Program-made: the position numbers and the translations under genes
Shown here: one piece after another, positions 17,227 to 27,534 of the stretch
How positions within the stretch are numbered: position 1 is the stretch's first letter
How the letters are laid out: every line of letters starts with the position of its first letter
The notes under the pieces: model-generated
Told to the model about the DNA's origin: nothing
What the model saw: the letters and a program-made list of their open reading frames with translations, nothing else
Database searches by the model: none
Source of the DNA: a virus
DNA: 34,390 nt
Strand: one strand, 5' to 3'
IMG/VR virus record: IMGVR_UViG_3300031951_000656
Location: 1-34,390 of that record

Positions 17227-18659
17227 AGCCCGAGGAGGCCGTCAAAGCCGCCCGGGAGAATCCGGCGGCGTTCGTCGCTCTGTGCCTTGGAAGGCCCGTC
17301 AGCGCCCTTCAGCGCGATTTCCTGTGCCATGCGATTGAGAACGGGAGTTGGTACGCGGAACTGCCGCGCGGCCACGCCAAGACAAGCACGGGCGCGTACC
17401 TGCTTGCGTGGTGGCTAGGGGTCAGGCCGGAAACCCGGTTCAAGTACATCTCGCAGAACGACGAGGCCGCAGCCGCCACGACGCGATTCGTGCGCGAGAT
17501 CGTCCGCAGCCAAGCGTTCCAAGCCGTGTTCCCGAAGGTGCGGCTCAAGCCGGGTGAGGACACCGTGACGGCGTGGTCGGTCACGGCTCCCGGACTTCCG
17601 GCCCGCCGCGACCCGTCCGTGCAGGGAGCGGGCATCTTCGGTCGAACCGGAGGCCGAGCCGACATCCTGTGGTTCGATGACATCTGCGACCTTCGGAACA
17701 GCGTGCTACAGCCCGCGCTCCGCGATCAGGTCAAGGAAGCCGTCGCGAACATCTGGATGCCGATGCTCGACCCGTCCGCGCAGCATCCGAGCCGGGTCTG
17801 GAGGACCGCGACCCCGTTCCACACCGATGACCAGACCGCCGATTGGCGCAAGACGCACGCGGCAGACGGTTCGCTCTTCCGGCGACCCTGCCGGGGTACC
17901 GACAGCCCGTGGCCCGAGGTGTTCACCCCCAAGGTGCTTTCGGATCGCCGGAACGAACTCGGCCCGATGGCCTACGCCCGAGCCTACGAACTGGTGCCGC
18001 TGTCGAGCGACCTGCTTGTGTTCCGGCCCGAGTGGGTGCGCTACTACCGGGCGGGCGAGCGCCCGACCGTCTCCCGGGTCGTGGCGGCGGTGGATTGGGG
18101 CTACGGTCGCAAGGCGCAGGAGCGCGACGATCCCGACTTCTCGGTCTGCCTCGTCGGGGAGGTCGATCAGGACCGGAACCTGTACCTCACCGACATCCTG
18201 CGCGTCCGCGAGGCGTTCCCCGAGTTCGCGAAACTGGCGGCGGCGCTGCTGTCCCGCCGGGGCGCGAGCGTGGTTCTGGCCGAGGCGAACGGCCCTCAGA
18301 AGGGCATCTTCGACCAGTTCGTGACGATGACCTCGCAGCCGATGGTCGCGGTCGAGCGTGCGACCGACAAGCACATCCGCGCGGCGGGAGCGCAGCCGTT
18401 CGTGGCCGGAGGCAAGTTGCTGTTCCCGACCGACGAGCGCGGATCGGTGCTTCCTCAGTTCCAACCCGTGCTAGACGAGATGATGTCGTTCCCCGCCGGA
18501 TCGCACGACGATACGGTTGACACGGTCGTTGACCTGTGCGGCGAGGCGACGAGGGGATCGCTTACCCGGGGCGACATGAATGTCAAGCGAATAGAACGGC
18601 CCGACGCGATTGGTAGGCTGTTTGGCGCGACGAAGCCCAAGCGACCGATGTTCGGCTGA
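17202..18659 (+). CDS. terL: Terminase large subunit
   Basis: This 485-aa protein starts at GTG 17202, overlapping the small subunit gene. The ATPase domain has a Walker A-like PRGHAKTS (residues 55-62) and Walker B ILWFDD with Asp159/Asp160. The nuclease domain has AAVDWGYGRK (Asp298), VLAEANGPQKG (Glu361) and SHDDTVD (Asp436/Asp437), the acidic triad expected of an RNase H-like terminase nuclease. It drives DNA packaging into the prohead and cuts the concatemer. Length and motif order are normal. Confidence 0.95.
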   Translation: MPKAQAPLKPEEAVKAARENPAAFVALCLGRPVSALQRDFLCHAIENGSWYAELPRGHAKTSTGAYLLAWWLGVRPETRFKYISQNDEAAAATTRFVREIVRSQAFQAVFPKVRLKPGEDTVTAWSVTAPGLPARRDPSVQGAGIFGRTGGRADILWFDDICDLRNSVLQPALRDQVKEAVANIWMPMLDPSAQHPSRVWRTATPFHTDDQTADWRKTHAADGSLFRRPCRGTDSPWPEVFTPKVLSDRRNELGPMAYARAYELVPLSSDLLVFRPEWVRYYRAGERPTVSRVVAAVDWGYGRKAQERDDPDFSVCLVGEVDQDRNLYLTDILRVREAFPEFAKLAAALLSRRGASVVLAEANGPQKGIFDQFVTMTSQPMVAVERATDKHIRAAGAQPFVAGGKLLFPTDERGSVLPQFQPVLDEMMSFPAGSHDDTVDTVVDLCGEATRGSLTRGDMNVKRIERPDAIGRLFGATKPKRPMFG

Positions 18660-18672
18660 TACACTCGCCACC

Positions 18673-21600
18673 ATGTGCGGAACCCGCTCCACATTCTCGC
18701 GAACGGAAACCAAGTTCTTCGCAGGGGGGACAAGGGTCGAGCAGGGGCAGTTGCGCGAGGTCACGGCAATGCAGTTTGCGAGGCTGTTTCCGACGCGCAA
18801 GGATGGGTACACGAAGAAATCGGGTGCGAAGCGTCAGCCGCTAGACGAACGCGCTCTGTGGCCCGAATCGAAGTGGCGTGAAATCTATCTGAGCAGGGCG
18901 CACGCCGCTCTCGACCCAAACAGGGAGTGGGGACAGGCCGAAGCCAACGAGGTTCGCGCTGTCGGGGTCGATGCGTGGGTGCGCGAGAAGATGCAGGCGC
19001 TCTACGCGGATCGACCGCCTATCGGAATCCCAAGTTCCCGGTTTCTCGTCACGAACTCGTCGCCGCCACAGGCAATCGACCGGGTCGTGAAGTGGGAGCG
19101 AACCGAAACGCCCACGACCTGCGGCGCACGGTGCCGCATGGCGCGGGGACCGATGTGCGACTGCGTCTGCGAGGGCCAGTTCCACGGCGCGGGTGCGACG
19201 ATGTCCCGCGCCCGGTTCTCCGAGATCGACCTGAAGCCCACCGAGCAGATGGCATCGAACGCGGCTCGCGGGCTTGAACTCCGCGAGAAGCACGGCAAGG
19301 GCGGAACCGCCGTGGGGGTCGCCCGCGCACGCGACATCAAGAACCGCGCGAATCTCTCCCCCGACACCGTGCGCCGGATGCACTCGTTCTTCTCGCGGCA
19401 CGCGGGGAACGAGAAGGGCGGCGAGGACGATGCGGGCTACATCTCGTTCCTGCTCTGGGGCGGCGCTGCGGGCCGCGAGTGGGCCGCGAGCAAGTCAAGG
19501 CAACTGGACAAGAGCGAATCGGCCCGTGGGGCCGCAAGGAAGGCAACGATGGGGTCACTTCGTGTTGGAAAGGTGCCGCTTGATTATGCCAAGTCCATTG
19601 GTGAGGAATACGGGCAGCGGGCATCGCGGCGCGGGATCAAGCGCCTGATTGATGACCCGGAAGCCCTTGCGCGAATCAGACTGCTGAAGCATGGATATGA
19701 ACCGATGTCCTCAGCGGCAGAGAAAATCGACAAGGCGTTTTACGACGGATGGCTGCGCGGCCTGACGCGCGATCACATCCGGGGCGTTGAACATCCCCCG
19801 AAGTTCAAGATCGGAGATCGCGTCACCCATAATGTTGGCTCTTCGCTTCATGTCGGGACTGTCGTTCGGGTTCTTGCACACTCGGAACCGGAACCGGAGT
19901 ATCAGGTGGACTTCAACTCGCTTCCGACCGGGCGGTCAAGGCTTATGCTTTCCGAATCGTCACTCCACCCATACAACCCCCAGAGGGGACTGAAGGCCGC
20001 AAGGAAGGCAACGATGGCAAAGTTCAAGATTGGCGACCGGATTGCGTACAAGCCGTCCCCTGCGAAAACTGCCGGGGAAATCGTGGAAATCCGTGAGCCG
20101 GATTCGGTGGGCGACATTCAGCGCCGCCGTCCGGGGCAGCGCCTTGAGGTCGAGTACGGCGTTCGGCAGGAGGGTGGAGCGATCATGTGGATTTCCGAGG
20201 GCATGGCGGTGAAGGCATCGCGCCCCGGCACGAAGGCGAAGATGGGACGAACCGAAGAGGAATACCGCGAGGACATCGGTAACGCCATTGCCCTGTTGAA
20301 GAGTTGGACGAAGGCTCTCGACGCGGCGTTGCTCGCGGGAAACTATCGCGAGGCACAGAAAATCATCGCGAAGATGTCCACAACCGCGCAGCAACTGCAG
20401 GCCGAACTCAAGAACCCCGTGCAGAGAATGTCCCGCCCCGGCAAGGCGAAGATGGGACGCGCCGAACGCGAACTGCCGAATGGCGAGGTGCATCTTGATT
20501 TTGCCGCCGCAAAGGAATGGCTGTCGGGTCTTTCCGACGAGCAGTTGCGCTATGTCATCAAGGACGCGCGAGAGGCGGCGAACGCGATGCCGGAAGGGAA
20601 GAAGTTCAACTACTACCACGACCTTGTTCTGACGGCGGCACAGATGCTCACCAAGCGAACCAAGGCATCCCGCCCCGGCACCAAGTCCACTCACAAGGAA
20701 CCCGACATGAACCGCATTGAGATGTCGCGCCCCGGCGCGAAGGACGCTTTCGCGCTCGGACAGGCCGCTGCGGCTGCGGGCATCGACCGCCCGGAGAACG
20801 ACGAGGCGCTGCGCGAACTCGTCAAGAAGGTCGGCGGCGCTGAGACGGTCAGCCTGTTCGCCCGATGGAGCGAGGGCAAGGCCAAGTTCGCTCATGCGTC
20901 ATGGCATCAGGGAATCCTTGGCGCGGAAACTGCGCCGCAACTGGCGGCGCATTCGTGGATCGACCAGAACCTGTATTTCCTCCGGGGTCGCACGGCGATG
21001 CTGCTTGCCGACCTTGCGGCGGGCGTTCATGCCACCAATCCGAACCTGCCGCTTCCGCAGGCCGTGATGCAGGCGGCGAAGGACATGGTCCGCAAGGGCG
21101 TTGCGACTAGCGAACTGCGGGATTGGGTCGCCAATGGCGGCAAGTTCTCCCGCTCCGGCGCGAAGGCGAAGTTCGGGACTCCCGACGAGGCGCTTCATGT
21201 GTTCAATGTTCTCGCGGAAGCGGAGAAAGCGGGCATGAACGGCAACCGCGCAAAGATGCGCTCGCTCCTCGCTTCGATTTCCGCGATGGTCGAGCGCGAC
21301 CGCTCCAAACTCCCTGCGGGGGCGGTGGCCTTCTATGACGAAATGAAGGCCAAAGCCGCCATGTCCCGCCCCGGCACAAAGGCAGAGTTTGCGGATTACG
21401 CATCGTTTCACCCAACTGCCCCGTGGACTCCAAACCCGCAGGGAAATCACCGCTACAAGAAGGGTGATCGCGTTGTAAGCCATGAGGGCCGAAACCCGAA
21501 AACAGGCGTTATTGATAGGTTGATGCGCGATGCACATGGCTATCCGACCTATGTTGTGTATTGGGACGAGGGCGGTACTAGAGATGTTGCAGATGCTCAT

Positions 21601-22038
21601 CTAACCAAGATGTCCCGTCCCGGCGCGAAGGTGAAGTTTGGAAATGCTGACGCGCTTTTAGACCTTGCAAGCGGATACATCGCGGACGGCGACGATGAGG
21701 CGGGGCTGCTGCTAACCGATCTTGTCAAGATGCAGAATCGCGGGCTGTTGTCTGAGGATCAGAAGAAGTACCTTCGCAAACTGATTCAAGAGGGCCGCGC
21801 TATGGGCGTTTTTTCCCGCCCCGGCGCGAAGGCGCGGTTCGGAGATGCCGAGAAGTTGAACTCCCTACTCGCTGCCGCCGTTGAGGCGATGAGGCGCGGT
21901 GATAAGTCGGCTTTGTACAACTTGATGGCGCAGGCTCTACGCGAGATTGATGAAAACACCCCCGCAGGACTGCGGCACGACTATCAGCACCTGAAGAGCA
22001 TGATGTCCCGCCCCGGCGCGAAGGCGACGAAGCCGTGA
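18673..22038 (+). CDS. Giant modular protein with nine SRPG(A/T)KxxFG linkers
   Basis: This 1121-aa protein starts at ATG 18673, 13 bases after terL. Residues 1-145 are unrecognised. Residues 150-171 carry a Cys/His cluster (Cys150, 154, 162, 164, 166, His171) ending in GQFHGAGAT, and 188-273 a GGTAVGVARARDIKNR...LSPDTVRRMHSF...LLWGGAAGREWA domain; both are widespread phage modules. The rest is a string of small domains: SH3-like units opening KFKIGDRV (377), KFKIGDRI (450) and KKGDRV (about 928), and short helical bundles. They are joined by the basic peptide SRPG(A/T)KAKFG at residues 516, 587, 666, 685, 826 (SRSG), 898, 981, 1048 and 1112, the last closing the protein. Position between terminase and portal suggests a virion or head-assembly role; processing is inferred. 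Confidence 0.85.
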   Translation: MCGTRSTFSRTETKFFAGGTRVEQGQLREVTAMQFARLFPTRKDGYTKKSGAKRQPLDERALWPESKWREIYLSRAHAALDPNREWGQAEANEVRAVGVDAWVREKMQALYADRPPIGIPSSRFLVTNSSPPQAIDRVVKWERTETPTTCGARCRMARGPMCDCVCEGQFHGAGATMSRARFSEIDLKPTEQMASNAARGLELREKHGKGGTAVGVARARDIKNRANLSPDTVRRMHSFFSRHAGNEKGGEDDAGYISFLLWGGAAGREWAASKSRQLDKSESARGAARKATMGSLRVGKVPLDYAKSIGEEYGQRASRRGIKRLIDDPEALARIRLLKHGYEPMSSAAEKIDKAFYDGWLRGLTRDHIRGVEHPPKFKIGDRVTHNVGSSLHVGTVVRVLAHSEPEPEYQVDFNSLPTGRSRLMLSESSLHPYNPQRGLKAARKATMAKFKIGDRIAYKPSPAKTAGEIVEIREPDSVGDIQRRRPGQRLEVEYGVRQEGGAIMWISEGMAVKASRPGTKAKMGRTEEEYREDIGNAIALLKSWTKALDAALLAGNYREAQKIIAKMSTTAQQLQAELKNPVQRMSRPGKAKMGRAERELPNGEVHLDFAAAKEWLSGLSDEQLRYVIKDAREAANAMPEGKKFNYYHDLVLTAAQMLTKRTKASRPGTKSTHKEPDMNRIEMSRPGAKDAFALGQAAAAAGIDRPENDEALRELVKKVGGAETVSLFARWSEGKAKFAHASWHQGILGAETAPQLAAHSWIDQNLYFLRGRTAMLLADLAAGVHATNPNLPLPQAVMQAAKDMVRKGVATSELRDWVANGGKFSRSGAKAKFGTPDEALHVFNVLAEAEKAGMNGNRAKMRSLLASISAMVERDRSKLPAGAVAFYDEMKAKAAMSRPGTKAEFADYASFHPTAPWTPNPQGNHRYKKGDRVVSHEGRNPKTGVIDRLMRDAHGYPTYVVYWDEGGTRDVADAHLTKMSRPGAKVKFGNADALLDLASGYIADGDDEAGLLLTDLVKMQNRGLLSEDQKKYLRKLIQEGRAMGVFSRPGAKARFGDAEKLNSLLAAAVEAMRRGDKSALYNLMAQALREIDENTPAGLRHDYQHLKSMMSRPGAKATKP
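19531..20017 (+). repeat. 22-bp direct repeat at module boundaries
   Basis: A 22-base sequence starting GCCGCAAGGAAGGCAACGAT occurs exactly at 19531-19552 and again at 19996-20017, both in the same frame and both encoding AARKATM. The copies flank a 465-base unit that includes the first SH3-like module, and a second SH3-like module starts right after the downstream copy. This fits duplication or shuffling of modules. Confidence 0.8.
20218..22035 (+). repeat. Nine dispersed SRPG-linker repeats
   Basis: Nine in-frame copies of a ~30-base unit start at 20218, 20431, 20668, 20725, 21148, 21364, 21613, 21814 and 22006. The core TCCCGCCCCGGC is near-invariant (one copy has CGC-TCC, encoding SRSG) and is followed by codons for (A/T)K(A/V)(K/E/R)(F/M)(G/A). 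The copy at 20431 lacks one codon. The distances in residues are 71, 79, 19, 141, 72, 83, 67 and 64, so linkers recur about every 65-85 residues. Confidence 0.9.
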
Positions 22039-22209: not shown

Positions 22210-23685
22210 ATGGCGAAGAAGAAGCCCACGGACGGAAACCCGCTCACCAACGGCCTGACCGTCGAGGAGAGGCCGCGCAAGCCGCTCCCGGCTCCGGTCG
22301 AGCGCGGGCTTACTTCGCCGCTCGCGACCGCAGTCGAGGTGCAGCGTTCGTTCTTCACGACCGCCGACAAGATGCTGCGGAACAGCAGCATCGCCTACCG
22401 CCTGAATCCGCAGTATCAGCAGATGATGCGGGCCGACGCGGACATCGAAGGTGTCCTGCGTTCCCTTCAGGTCACGCTCGCGAGCCTTGAATGGGCCGTG
22501 ACCTGCACGGACGAGGACAACGCCGCCGCCGCCGAACTCGCGGAGAAGGTGGCGAAGGTGTTCGACGCGATGCCGCGCCGCTCGGATTTCGTGCGTGCGA
22601 TGCACGAAGCCGTGTGGTACGGGAACGCCGCCTGCAACCTTGTCTACGAGCGCGACTCCCGGCTCGGGGTCAGGGTCCGCGAGTGGTATCCGTTCCACCC
22701 GGACACGCTTGCATACGACCAACGGGGCAACCTAGCGATGCGCGTCGGCGCGGACTACTCCGCGCACGGGCCGTCCTCGCAGAACATCGGCTTCGACAGC
22801 CGCGTCCACATCTTCGATGAGCGCGAGCGCAAGGCCGTCGTGCTGCACCGCGTGTTCGTGAACGCGCCCGACTTCAACGACCCGAACTCCACCGAGAGCA
22901 TCTATCGCGGCGTGGGCGCTCGCGATGTCTGTTGGTTCATGTGGCTCGCGAAGCAGGAAATCCTTCAGGACGCGATAACCTACGCGGAGCGGTACGCGAT
23001 GGGCATTCGCGTCGGCTACTACCCGCTCGGTCAGGACGCGGGCCGGGAGATGATGGAGACGGTTCTGTCGAACCTCACGAACGACAACTCCGTCCTGCTC
23101 CCGCAGAGCGGAACCGAGAAAATCTACGACATCGACATCAAGGAACCGAACGCAGGCCGCGCTCAGGTGTTCATGGAACTGGTGAACTGGTTCAGCGGCA
23201 AGATCAAGGAAGCGATCCTCGGTCAGTCGCTGTCCTCTGAGGCTCAGGGGACCGGGCTTGGTTCCGGGGTCGCGAACCTGCACGCGGACACGCTCTCGCG
23301 AATCATCCGCTACCACGCGGACGCGCTCGCGGACAGCCTCACGAACGACTTCGTGCGGATCGTCGCGAAGATGCTCGGCGGCAAGGACGAGGACATTTCG
23401 TGCCTGCGATTTGAGTTCGCGCCCGAGCGCCCGGACCCGAAGGAACGCCTTGAAGCGATCCGCGCGTTCGTGGAGATGGGCGGCAGGGTCGCTGAGTCGG
23501 AGGTCCGCGACCTCCTCGGCCTCTCGCAGCCCGGAGAGGGTGAACCCGTTCTCGGCATGGCCTCGCAGGCGGCGGGCGCACCCGACCCGCTGTCGGCCAT
23601 CCTCGGGGGCGGATCGGTCCCTGACGAGGGCGAGCCGCCCGCGCAGGGCGCTCCCAAGGCGTTCAGCCGCCGCAGTTGGTGGTGA
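22210..23685 (+). CDS. Portal protein, Mu gp29-like (DUF935)
   Basis: This 491-aa protein starts at ATG 22210 with GAGGA upstream. Characteristic segments are YQQMMRADADIEGVLRSLQV, LEWAVTC, FVRAMHEAVWYGNAACNLVY, LAKQEILQDAITYAERYAMG and VNWFSGKIKEAILGQSLSSE followed by ADTLSRIIRYHADALADSLT. These match DUF935 portals of Mu-like head modules. It forms the dodecameric ring at the capsid vertex for DNA passage and tail attachment. It ends AFSRRSWW, and the next gene starts in its stop codon. Confidence 0.9.
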   Translation: MAKKKPTDGNPLTNGLTVEERPRKPLPAPVERGLTSPLATAVEVQRSFFTTADKMLRNSSIAYRLNPQYQQMMRADADIEGVLRSLQVTLASLEWAVTCTDEDNAAAAELAEKVAKVFDAMPRRSDFVRAMHEAVWYGNAACNLVYERDSRLGVRVREWYPFHPDTLAYDQRGNLAMRVGADYSAHGPSSQNIGFDSRVHIFDERERKAVVLHRVFVNAPDFNDPNSTESIYRGVGARDVCWFMWLAKQEILQDAITYAERYAMGIRVGYYPLGQDAGREMMETVLSNLTNDNSVLLPQSGTEKIYDIDIKEPNAGRAQVFMELVNWFSGKIKEAILGQSLSSEAQGTGLGSGVANLHADTLSRIIRYHADALADSLTNDFVRIVAKMLGGKDEDISCLRFEFAPERPDPKERLEAIRAFVEMGGRVAESEVRDLLGLSQPGEGEPVLGMASQAAGAPDPLSAILGGGSVPDEGEPPAQGAPKAFSRRSWW

Positions 23686-24791
23686 TGGCCGCGACCTCGG
23701 ACAACCTCCTCAAGCGGCTCCTAGAGGACGGGGCGACCGCCTACCGCGAGGCCGTCGCCGCCCGCGTCGAGGGCAAGGACGCTTCGGAGGCGTGGGATCG
23801 GTGGACCGCCGACACGGCGGCGATCCTTCTGGTGTCGTGGGCGATGGGCGCGACGGCGAGCGCCCGAGCCGCCGGGGTGCCGCTGCGCGAGATTCGCGAG
23901 CCGCCCGTCTCCCGGTTCGACCGGGGCATCGACAACCTCACGATGCGGTTTGAGTCCGGCCCCGCCCGGGAAGTCGTGGATCGGTTCATTCGGCTTCTGC
24001 CGATGACCCGGGAGAAGTGGGAGGCGCTTATCGCGCACGCCTTCAGCGCAGCCGGGGAACTGCGGGATGACGAGGCCGCGAACGCCCTGTCGGAGATCGC
24101 CGCCCGGTCGCCCGACCTCGCCGCGCTCATCTCCGGCACGGCCCGACCGGAGCCGCCCAAGACCAAGAAGCCGTTGCCGGAGGCGGTCAAGGTCCGCAGG
24201 ACTCCCGCCGTGCAGGCGGCGGTGCAGGGGTCGTTCTTCGCCACCGGGATGACACAGGAACAGGTCGAGGGAACCCGCGACCTGCTCGCCAAGGCGATTC
24301 GGGGAGAGGTCACGAAGAGCGTGGCAGGCAAGACGCTGATCGACCTCGGGGTCGGGGACTTTGTCGAGCAGACGGTGCTTGAGACGGGGACCGACCTGAC
24401 GGCGGCTCGCCTTGAGACGATCTACCGAACGAACATCAACCGCGCTCAGACGCAGGGTCAACTTGACATCTGCCGCGATCCGGTGGTTCGGAAGTTCGCT
24501 CCGCTGATGCGGTTCCGGGCGACCAAGGACACCCGGACCCGGGAATCGCATCGTGCGCTCGACGGCTACATTGCCACGACGGATCAGATCGACGGCATGG
24601 GCATCCCCACTCCGCTCGGGTTCAACTGCCGATGCTCTTGGACTCCGATCCCGATTGCGAAGGCGCTCGCGGAGGGTCTGTGCGACGAGGACGGCGTGCC
24701 GGACATGGAGGCGATCCGACGCGCGAACGGCAACCGTCAGGCGCTTATTGACAAGGGTCTTATTCCCGATCCCGGCTTCATTTCCGGCTAG
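23685..24791 (+). CDS. Mu gpF-like head morphogenesis protein
   Basis: The start is ATG 23685, overlapping the portal stop (TGATG); a TTG at 23676 is less likely. The 368-aa protein has the Mu gpF/SPP1 gp7 signature in its C-terminal third: TIYRTNINRAQTQGQLDICR, then FRATKDTRTRESHRALDGYI and GIPTPLGFNCRCSW, with the conserved R.SH..LDG and P..FNCRC motifs. Family members are minor head proteins acting near the portal during assembly or DNA ejection. Confidence 0.9.
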   Translation: MAATSDNLLKRLLEDGATAYREAVAARVEGKDASEAWDRWTADTAAILLVSWAMGATASARAAGVPLREIREPPVSRFDRGIDNLTMRFESGPAREVVDRFIRLLPMTREKWEALIAHAFSAAGELRDDEAANALSEIAARSPDLAALISGTARPEPPKTKKPLPEAVKVRRTPAVQAAVQGSFFATGMTQEQVEGTRDLLAKAIRGEVTKSVAGKTLIDLGVGDFVEQTVLETGTDLTAARLETIYRTNINRAQTQGQLDICRDPVVRKFAPLMRFRATKDTRTRESHRALDGYIATTDQIDGMGIPTPLGFNCRCSWTPIPIAKALAEGLCDEDGVPDMEAIRRANGNRQALIDKGLIPDPGFISG

Positions 24792-24808: not shown

Positions 24809-26035
24809 ATGACGCAGCCATCGCATCGAATCTCTGACATGGGCGACAAGGTCGTGATCCACGATCTTGAGGTCTTCTGCGCTTATGACCGTGGGATCGA
24901 CGGCGACCACGATGACGAACTGAAGAAGTTCGACAACGACCGCGTGCGCGACATCGTCGCATCGACGGCGCAGTACATGGATCGCGGATCGTATCCACGG
25001 CTCGTCGTGATGCACGAACGCGACGGCAAGGAACCGAAGTCGAGCGTCGGGCGCTTCACCAAGATTCGCTACGAGGAGCGTGGCGGCGTTGGATACATCG
25101 TGGGCGACTGCGAGGTCGAGCGCGGCGTGTTCGACAAGTTGCTCGCGACCAATGCGTTCCCGCGTCGAAGCGCGGAAATCTGGCAAGAGCAGAACCATCT
25201 GTCGGAGGTCGCGCTGCTTGGTCGCGAGACTCCGCGAAGGCCGCTGCCGGACACGCATTTCGTGCGGTCTGGCGACCGCGTGACCTTTGCTCGCTCACTC
25301 CGCTTCGACATGGGGACGGTCGGTGGCGGGCTTTCCACTTTCATCCCCGGAACGAAGGATCGCAACATGGCAGACGATGACATTCGCGGCGAACTCGCTG
25401 CGATGAAGGCTTCGATGGAGGCTCTTCAGGACGAGTTCAAGAAGCGGTTCGGATACGACGAGGAGTCGGACGAGCCGATGGAGAACGCCGAGCGCGAGGG
25501 CGAGAAGGAGGAGATGGAGGCCGACGATATGCTCACTCAGCAGTTCGCTGAGGAGGAGGGCGACGGCGACGGCATCCACATCGACATCGACTCGCACGGC
25601 GATGAGGAAGAGGAGGAAGAGGAGGACGAGGAGGCCGAGATGTTCCCGGCTTCGCGTCCGGGCCGCGCCGATGTCTTCGCGCTCCGTCGCGAGAACGCCC
25701 GCATGGCCCGCGAACTCCGCGAGATTCGCAGCGAACTCGCGCAGGAGAAGTTCTCCCGCGAACTCGACGCGATGGAGCAGGACGGCTACCGGATTCCGTC
25801 CGAGCGCCGCCCGCAGTTGATCGCGGAACTCGCCGCGAGCCGCGACCCGGCCTCGCTCATCGACACTTGGCGCGACCTGTTCTCGCGTGACTCGACCGGA
25901 GTCCGCATCGACATGGGCCGCGCCACTCTCCGTCACTCCGATTCGGATACCCGAAACATCTCCGACCTTGTCCGCGAGTTCGCGGGCAAGCCGGAGGAGT
26001 TCGTGAAGGCAGTCAACGCCCGCGTGAAGCGGTAA
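24809..26035 (+). CDS. Prohead protease-scaffold fusion, Mu gpI-like
   Basis: This 408-aa protein starts at ATG 24809; an ATG at 24839 is possible. Residues about 10-170 form the protease domain: DNDRVRDIVASTAQYMDRGS, LVVMHERDGKEPKSSVGRFT, and FPRRSAEIWQEQNHLSEVAL then LGRETPRRPLP, matching the L.RRS.E.......L..VALLG..PP motif of Mu-type proteases. Residues 172-184 carry GGGLSTFIPGTKD. After a likely internal start at Met187 comes a scaffold part: helical, then very acidic (about 215-278), then SRPGRADVFA at 282 and a coiled coil to the end. It should build the prohead and then degrade the scaffold and itself. Confidence 0.85.
   Translation: MTQPSHRISDMGDKVVIHDLEVFCAYDRGIDGDHDDELKKFDNDRVRDIVASTAQYMDRGSYPRLVVMHERDGKEPKSSVGRFTKIRYEERGGVGYIVGDCEVERGVFDKLLATNAFPRRSAEIWQEQNHLSEVALLGRETPRRPLPDTHFVRSGDRVTFARSLRFDMGTVGGGLSTFIPGTKDRNMADDDIRGELAAMKASMEALQDEFKKRFGYDEESDEPMENAEREGEKEEMEADDMLTQQFAEEEGDGDGIHIDIDSHGDEEEEEEEDEEAEMFPASRPGRADVFALRRENARMARELREIRSELAQEKFSRELDAMEQDGYRIPSERRPQLIAELAASRDPASLIDTWRDLFSRDSTGVRIDMGRATLRHSDSDTRNISDLVREFAGKPEEFVKAVNARVKR
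25367..26035 (+). CDS. Nested in-frame scaffold protein (internal start)
   Basis: ATG 25367 lies in frame within the protease gene, seven bases after AAGGA, and would give a 222-aa protein starting MADDDIRGELAAMKASMEAL. It would contain only the scaffold half: acidic region, SRPGRADVFA and coiled coil. Nested scaffold genes read from an internal start of the protease gene are known in Mu (I/Z) and lambda (C/Nu3). The internal ribosome site supports the same plan here; it is not proven. Confidence 0.55.
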   Translation: MADDDIRGELAAMKASMEALQDEFKKRFGYDEESDEPMENAEREGEKEEMEADDMLTQQFAEEEGDGDGIHIDIDSHGDEEEEEEEDEEAEMFPASRPGRADVFALRRENARMARELREIRSELAQEKFSRELDAMEQDGYRIPSERRPQLIAELAASRDPASLIDTWRDLFSRDSTGVRIDMGRATLRHSDSDTRNISDLVREFAGKPEEFVKAVNARVKR

Positions 26036-26051
26036 GCACAAGGAACCCAAC

Positions 26052-26444
26052 ATGGCAGACTTCGGATTCATCCCCAACCTCGTCGCTTCCGGCGACATCT
26101 CCCCGTTCCGCTTCGTGAAGATCAGCGGTGCCTTTCAGGGCGCTCAGGCCGCTGCGGAAGGCGACTACGCAATCGGCGTGACGGACGGCTCCGTGAACAA
26201 GTTCGACGGAACCTTCCACGCGGTCAGCGGTCAGCAGATCAGCCTTCAGCCGACGAACACCGTACAGATCGAATGCGGTGGCAATGTGACTGCGGGCGCG
26301 TTCCTTGAATCGGATGCGAACGGAAAGGCCGTCGCTGCGGGAGGCGCGGCTGCGGTTTCCTCGTACATCGCGCTTGAGGGTGGAGCGAGCGGAGAAATCA
26401 TCCGTGCGTTCCGCTTCGGCTATCGCGGCCCCGTCTTCTCCTGA
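26052..26444 (+). CDS. Putative capsid decoration protein (DUF2190-like)
   Basis: This 130-aa beta-rich protein has AAAEGDYAIGVTDGSVNKFD, NTVQIECGGNVTAGAFLESD and ANGKAVAAGG. The segment with G.V..G..L..D..G.A..A matches DUF2190-type decoration or capsid-stabilising proteins, which commonly precede the major capsid gene. It has few Lys/Cys and no TM. Likely role: trimeric decoration of the capsid surface. Confidence 0.75.
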   Translation: MADFGFIPNLVASGDISPFRFVKISGAFQGAQAAAEGDYAIGVTDGSVNKFDGTFHAVSGQQISLQPTNTVQIECGGNVTAGAFLESDANGKAVAAGGAAAVSSYIALEGGASGEIIRAFRFGYRGPVFS

Positions 26445-26481
26445 TCCAACCCCTGACTCCGACTAGAAAGAGAGCAATCAC

Positions 26482-27534
26482 ATGGCATTTACCGTCGCGG
26501 GTGGTGGTCTTTCGACCTTCATCCCCTCCACGAACGATCTCGCGACCGGGGCGCTTCAGGTCGAGTTCACGCGCAGCGTCAACTCGTTCGCGCTGTCCCG
26601 CTACGCGCAGTTGGTCCCCGTCACCAAGATGACGGGCTACTATCTCCGTCAGGATGTCTCGGACAATGTCCGCGTCACCGACGAGAAGGAGTTCGTGTGG
26701 CCGCTCGGCAACGACGCGCCCACGGGCAAGCAGAACTCGTTCGACTTCATCCAGTACAGCACGCAGCGGTTCGCGTTCCCGTTCTACATCCCGCAGGAAA
26801 CGACCGCGCAGGCGGCGTGGGATGTGGTCGCGCAGCACGCCCGCAGCAAGGCGCAGTTGGCGATGACCCGCCGCACGATGCAGGCGGCGACCGTCCTTTC
26901 CACCTCGGGCAACTGGGGCAACAACTACGCGGCCTTCTGCAACTCGTCCCCCCTGTCGGTCGGCGCGGGGTCGAAGTGGGATGGCAGCACCGAGGCGAAC
27001 GGCTACATCCAGAAGTCGATTCAGACCGTCATGCGGCTCGTCTCGCTGTCGAGCGGCGGCGCGGTCAGCCCGAATCAACTCATCATGGTCATCAGCCCGA
27101 CCGTCGCTCAGACCGTTTCTCAGTCGCCGGAGGTCAAGGCGTATGTGAAGAACTACGGCGCGGCGCTGTCGTTCCTTCAGGGTTCGGACACCTTCTCGCG
27201 GTGGGGCATCCCGCCGACCCTGTTCGGACTTGGCGATGTCGTGGTCGATGACTCGGTGAAGGTGACGAGCAAGAAGGGCGCTGCCTCCCTCACCTCGTCG
27301 TATGTCCTCGGCAACGGCGCGTACTTCGTGTCGCGTCCCGGCGGTCTGGTCGGTGTCGAGGGCAGCACCTCGTTCTCGACCCTCCAGATTTTCGCGTACG
27401 AGGACATGACCGTCGAGCAGTTCAGCGATCCGCGCAACCGTCGCCTTGAGGGCCGCGTGATCGACAACAGCGCCGCCGCGCTCGTCGCCCCCGTGGGTGG
27501 CTTCGCGATTGGCGATGTCATCAACGCATCGTGA
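26482..27534 (+). CDS. Major capsid protein
   Basis: This 350-aa protein starts at ATG 26482 with AGAAAGAGAG upstream. It begins MAFTVAGGGLSTFIPSTND and lacks a long N-terminal delta domain, as expected when scaffold is supplied in trans. Features of an HK97-fold protein are visible: a long N-arm, then QSPEVKAYVKNYGAALSFLQ (spine helix region) and VSRPGGLVGVEGSTSF, with an A-domain-like end NRRLEGRVIDNSAAALVAPV. Position after the protease-scaffold and decoration genes supports the call. The GGGLSTFIP motif is shared with the protease-scaffold protein. Confidence 0.85.
   Translation: MAFTVAGGGLSTFIPSTNDLATGALQVEFTRSVNSFALSRYAQLVPVTKMTGYYLRQDVSDNVRVTDEKEFVWPLGNDAPTGKQNSFDFIQYSTQRFAFPFYIPQETTAQAAWDVVAQHARSKAQLAMTRRTMQAATVLSTSGNWGNNYAAFCNSSPLSVGAGSKWDGSTEANGYIQKSIQTVMRLVSLSSGGAVSPNQLIMVISPTVAQTVSQSPEVKAYVKNYGAALSFLQGSDTFSRWGIPPTLFGLGDVVVDDSVKVTSKKGAASLTSSYVLGNGAYFVSRPGGLVGVEGSTSFSTLQIFAYEDMTVEQFSDPRNRRLEGRVIDNSAAALVAPVGGFAIGDVINAS

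Follow-up and report, generated by a model that had tools for sequence, protein, structure and literature searches.

Why do two head proteins of one phage, a protease-scaffold protein and the major capsid protein, carry nearly the same short peptide? In the window, by which we mean the whole stretch of 34,390 nucleotides of viral DNA that was analysed, GGGLSTFIPGTKD forms residues 172-184 of the protease-scaffold, and GGGLSTFIPSTND forms residues 7-19 of the major capsid protein, at the tip of its N-arm (Table 1). The first-pass annotation had reported that these peptides agree at 11 of 13 positions and that the two proteins are otherwise unrelated, and on both points we come to the same result. 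When the proteins are compared by BLASTP, the shared peptide is the sole match (11/13, E 3e-4), the next alignment having an E of 5.8. From composition, the number of matches of at least 11/13 expected by chance is 2e-7, and in an ungapped test none of 300 shuffles went beyond 8/13. In a gapped local-alignment shuffle test, which is less sharp than the ungapped one, the observed score was attained in 3 of 2000 shuffles. No third copy of the peptide occurs within the window, where the best other 9-mer agrees at 5 of 9 positions, and a search of the scaffold and portal for an additional site found nothing consistent.

The peptide within the head module

The Portal_Mu and Mu F proteins adjoin the protease-scaffold, as is characteristic of a Mu-like head module. 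The 130-aa protein further downstream carries the phrog_673 label ‘head scaffolding protein’, though the scaffold appears to be fused to the protease here, and the 1142-aa ORF at 18610-22038, upstream of the portal gene, has a weak match to phrog_2859 only.

Table 1. Features of the head module in the window
Feature	Position (nt)	Strand	Basis or remark
Portal protein, Portal_Mu family (context)	22210..23685	+	Pfam PF06074, E 2.8e-48
Mu F-like head protein (context)	23676..24791	+	Pfam PF04233, E 1e-13
Protease-scaffold ORF, 408 aa	24809..26035	+	
Protease domain, residues 1-153; putative catalytic His69 and Ser121, with invariant Glu123	24809..25267	+	Conservation, AF2, PDB matches
Shared peptide, protease copy; putative protease/scaffold release site	25322..25360	+	Core GGGLSTFIP at 25322-25348, plus GTKD
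Shine-Dalgarno-like GAAGGA of internal scaffold start	25354..25359	+	Sequence; similar in clades A and B
Scaffold part, probably also made alone from internal ATG	25367..26035	+	Shine-Dalgarno-like sequence and ATG
130-aa head protein (context)	26052..26444	+	phrog_673, E 1.5e-17
Major capsid protein, HK97 fold, 350 aa	26482..27534	+	AF2 model; structure matches
Shared peptide, capsid copy, at N-arm tip	26500..26538	+	Sequence; low pLDDT

Of the 13-residue match as first described, the core stands, and the C-terminal end has in part another cause. The K-D codons of GTKD form the Shine-Dalgarno-like GAAGGA, and the meaningful shared core is therefore V/A-GGGLSTFIP. Across the family TKD is variable, and STND is almost fixed in the capsid proteins of clade A. 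GAAGGA lies seven bases 5’ of an ATG, and an internal ATG with a Shine-Dalgarno-like sequence is found 5-8 codons after the motif in clades A and B, with counterparts in most of clade C. From these signals, the internal ATG probably gives a scaffold-only product. Inside the protease-scaffold gene, the segment that holds both signals (25354-25369) is strongly conserved.

In the protease domain, H69, G81, S121, E123 and P142 are invariant in 44 of 44 diverse relatives, and the conserved H69 and S121, together with E123, are putative catalytic residues. The AF2 model is well ordered to about residue 150, with a core mostly above pLDDT 90. Residues 161-187, which include the motif, fall below pLDDT 50 and are predicted to form a disordered linker, and a scaffold helix is predicted from residue 192. 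When Foldseek candidates were realigned with VIA-align, T4 gp21 (5jbl) came first (Z 7.8), followed by herpesvirus assemblins (Z 5-7); these matches rank above unrelated rows, yet all of them have a Z below 8. Plain Foldseek of the protease model against the PDB gave no match at E<0.001, PHROG and Pfam searches with the window protease-scaffold gave no protease match, and matches of the model in BFVD include named capsid maturation proteases. The AF2 model of the capsid protein has the HK97 fold (3bjq, Z 21.7; HK97 1ohg, Z ~15.6) and a disordered N-terminus, with residues 1-9 and 18-20 below pLDDT 50. A PHROG search with the window capsid (P0002) found no match to the Mu-like phrog_371 type, and the distant capsids of clade C match phrog_1005 weakly.

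The peptide pair among relatives

With the capsid protein as query, 80 IMG/VR loci were found, all of which have the capsid copy, and every one whose protease ORF was found has the protease copy as well. Altogether, the N-terminal tip of the capsid protein carries such a peptide in more than 200 IMG/VR loci, and the linker copy accompanies it at every locus whose sequence covers the end of the protease domain, save for clade D and for L271, an ambiguous case; the few seeming gaps in clade B are truncated ORFs. Clade A has GGGLS in both proteins, and clade B, with capsids of ~62% identity, has GGGLN in both. At 35-40% capsid identity, members of clade C have P-[S/G]-x-x-[N/S]-[T/V]-[F/Y]-V near the capsid N-terminus and a corresponding peptide following the protease domain. 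These distant relatives use PSATNVFV, PGPTSVFV or PGGNNTFVK, with a matching one in both proteins, as is seen in the capsid/protease pairs PGPTSVFV/PGPTSVYV (L168), PGQSNTYIR/PGCSNTFLR (L220), SVHVP/NVHIP (L245) and NVAVP/NVAVP (L257), and in L170, with PSATN in both. The linker itself is free in length, since in one protease-scaffold (L177:2646-4430) the protease domain and the peptide are ~50 residues further apart. In the metagenomic contig L167/L237 the protease ORF seems to be interrupted, and the peptide lies in a different frame.

As a held-out check, a profile of the whole capsid protein, not of the motif, was run against 392 genomes of the phylum to which a planctomycete MAG with a relative of the head module belongs. 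Besides that MAG itself, the search found one further genome (L276, genome G358), and this genome also has a pair (capsid PSQSNTYVP, protease linker PSGGNVFVP). Relatives of the head module are thus present in two genomes of one phylum, the other being L084 in the Planctomycetota MAG, an indication of where the hosts of the distant clade may lie. Protein searches of annotated phages found no cultured relatives of clades A, C and D, and a sequence search of solved structures gave no match.

Clade D (L240-L267 type) keeps the capsid peptide, as FPSGTNTYIPSF, and its protease ORFs (e.g. L240:2836-4005) have no linker peptide, the protease running directly into the scaffold. As such, the capsid copy can stand alone, and the copies need not go together.

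Elsewhere, the two copies change together. Among 17 unique pairs of clade C, identity within the own genome averages 5.47/9, versus 4.00/9 across genomes; none of 20000 permutations attained the own-genome value. When partners were exchanged between the members of 33 disjoint sister pairs, from a tree that left the N-terminus out, the copies became less alike in 12 pairs and more alike in 3 (sign-flip p 0.003). It should be noted that some copies missed by the pattern search were located by visual inspection, which could bias these coupling tests somewhat. Within clade A alone no covariation was measurable, because both copies are nearly fixed there. Coupling by MI/APC was dominated by the split between clades, and the ranks of the motif diagonal (43, 276, 364, 33020, 4566, 2692, 2197, 10577 and 221 among 50232) were not used as evidence. 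The fraction of identical codons at shared residues, 0.37, is not above the 0.41 expected from usage; selection therefore acts on the peptide, and with differing codons, DNA copying does not explain why it is shared. Coupled evolution of the copies in turn points to one partner that recognises both. This much is common to the two options raised in the first-pass annotation, a protease site or a common binding surface.

A putative cleavage site and its alternatives

Of these options, a putative protease site is favoured by the position of the copy in the linker, by the predicted protease fold and by the weaker constraint on the C-terminal half of the protease copy. We consider it probable that the phage’s own capsid-maturation protease recognises and cleaves the shared peptide, the linker copy serving as the site of release from the scaffold and the other copy as a site at the N-terminal tip of the major capsid protein. 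Once the procapsid has formed, the enzyme would detach itself from the scaffold by cleavage and shorten every capsid subunit by ~12 residues. It would read motif residues 1-6, [G/P]-[G/S]-[G/A]-x-[S/N]-[T/V], and the [F/Y]-[V/I]-x that follows the cut would stay on the mature capsid protein. We infer that the enzyme is active as a protease and cuts at the motif, and place the scissile bond, with low confidence, near T177-F178 and T12-F13, to within about one residue.

Several observations favour such a common cleavage site. Copies occur in clades A, B and the distant C and change together, and the held-out genome has the pair as well. The protease copy lies in a disordered linker just before an internal Shine-Dalgarno sequence and ATG, as in UL26/UL26.5. 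The structural matches to gp21 and assemblin, with His, Ser and Glu invariant in 44/44, agree with a protease of this kind, and there are precedents in SPN3US gp245 and in the motif common to the capsid and scaffold proteins of 80alpha. Furthermore, the protease copy is relaxed at position 7, where it has R, H, C, N, S, M or A, and the capsid copy is there almost always F/Y. In clade C, the entropy at positions 7 and 8 is 2.35 and 2.12 bits in the protease copy versus 1.19 and 0.91 bits in the capsid copy, with similar values in both at positions 5-6. The looser positions 7-8 fit recognition on the N-terminal side of a cut, though this is suggestive only, and the contrast between positions 1-6 and 7-9 depends in part on the search pattern with which the protease copies were found. 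Against a cleavage site it can be held that a shared stretch of 9 residues exceeds sites of the AXE type in length, that clade D has a capsid copy without a protease copy, and that scaffold and portal have no extra site, unlike the substrates of many maturation proteases. The fold matches, with Z <8, and clade A, which taken alone is without covariation, count against it too.

The strongest alternative is that the N-terminal tip of the capsid protein docks on a neighbouring subunit and that the protease linker copies this peptide. The linker would then hold the protease at the shell, or fill the docking site until the real arm replaces it, and cleavage at the motif would be unneeded. Coupled evolution is equally expected here if the common partner is the capsid surface, and a capsid copy without a protease copy, as in clade D, fits well. 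The F/Y-V/I of the motif resembles a hydrophobic anchor, altered in both copies of L245 and L257, and N-arm hooks do interact in JBD30 (PMC11445458). However, the anchor-like position 7 is the very one that is most relaxed in the protease copy, the fused scaffold would presumably already bring the protease into the procapsid, and a release site would be expected at just the place of the protease copy. We therefore prefer the common cleavage site and regard mimicry of the N-arm as unlikely, albeit a serious contender. Rather doubtful, too, is the more specific proposal that the mimic docks where a capsid arm would otherwise sit in the shell as it grows, the lattice thereby counting or positioning the enzyme or keeping it inactive, and the peptides being tied to each other through competition for one site. 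If true, N-arm mimicry would be a new way of placing a protease inside the procapsid.

A third partner, such as a chaperone, the portal, the scaffold or a host protease like Prp, might instead bind the peptide in both proteins and coordinate assembly. In 80alpha, the host protease Prp recognises one N-terminal peptide that is present in the capsid and the scaffold protein alike, and a common chaperone has also been suggested (PMC5744158). In the window, however, neither copy has an F-A bond at the motif, which is where a Prp-type site (the L27/capsid/scaffold motif) is cut; the phages encode a putative protease of their own, with invariant His and Ser, and a partner encoded by the phage would more simply account for co-change across many distant lineages. 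As such, we find a third partner improbable.

That the match is left over from a duplication of DNA or from gene conversion, or is a chance resemblance, without common function, has next to no probability: the window match is long at the DNA level too (23 of 27 nucleotides identical in the core), but codon identity does not exceed usage and both copies persist at 35-40% capsid identity. A chance match was rejected on its expectation of 2e-7, and recent DNA copying or conversion on the absence of excess nucleotide identity across the family.

If the common cleavage site is correct, cut sites of a capsid protease would be predicted from sequence only, in the enzyme and in the capsid, for an uncultured phage family, and the dozens of natural variant pairs would make a ready-made specificity panel.

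Relation to known systems

In gene order, the module resembles that of the Casadabanvirus phages JBD5 and JBD30, in which the genes for the protease-scaffold, a ~130-aa protein and the capsid follow in the same order. However, in sequence their capsid and protease are of different families from those of the window; hhalign of our protease profile (A5) against the JBD5 protease-scaffold, of the Mu-like phrog_328 type, gave a probability of 0.1, and the JBD5 protease and capsid, when inspected, have no such common peptide.

The occurrence of one short peptide in two head proteins has a counterpart in 80alpha, where an N-terminal cleavage motif is common to the capsid and scaffold proteins and host Prp removes 13-14 residues (PMC5744158). 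There, the protease is that of the host and the motif is another one, whereas the window phage has its own putative protease and an internal second copy. Closer in its logic is SPN3US gp245, which cuts its own C-terminal propeptide and the N-propeptide of the capsid protein at one motif, AXE (PMC10052503), and T4 gp21 is the best structural match of the window protease (Z 7.8). In contrast to gp21 and gp245, the motif of the window is unrelated to AXE, the propeptide would be ~12 residues, and two candidate sites only were seen.

In herpesviruses, the linker peptide between protease and scaffold in UL26/UL26.5 is the R-site, and the R- and M-sites of this one enzyme resemble each other (PMC4498786). 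The M-site is near the scaffold C-terminus, whereas the second copy in the window phage is at the capsid N-tip, and the herpesvirus motifs, YLQA/T and VQA/S, differ from the motif found here. Nevertheless, the window phage shares with the assemblin system (MEROPS S21) the fusion of protease and scaffold, a putative site in the linker and a probable scaffold-only product from an in-frame overlapping gene; the predicted fold may be similar too (Z 5-7).
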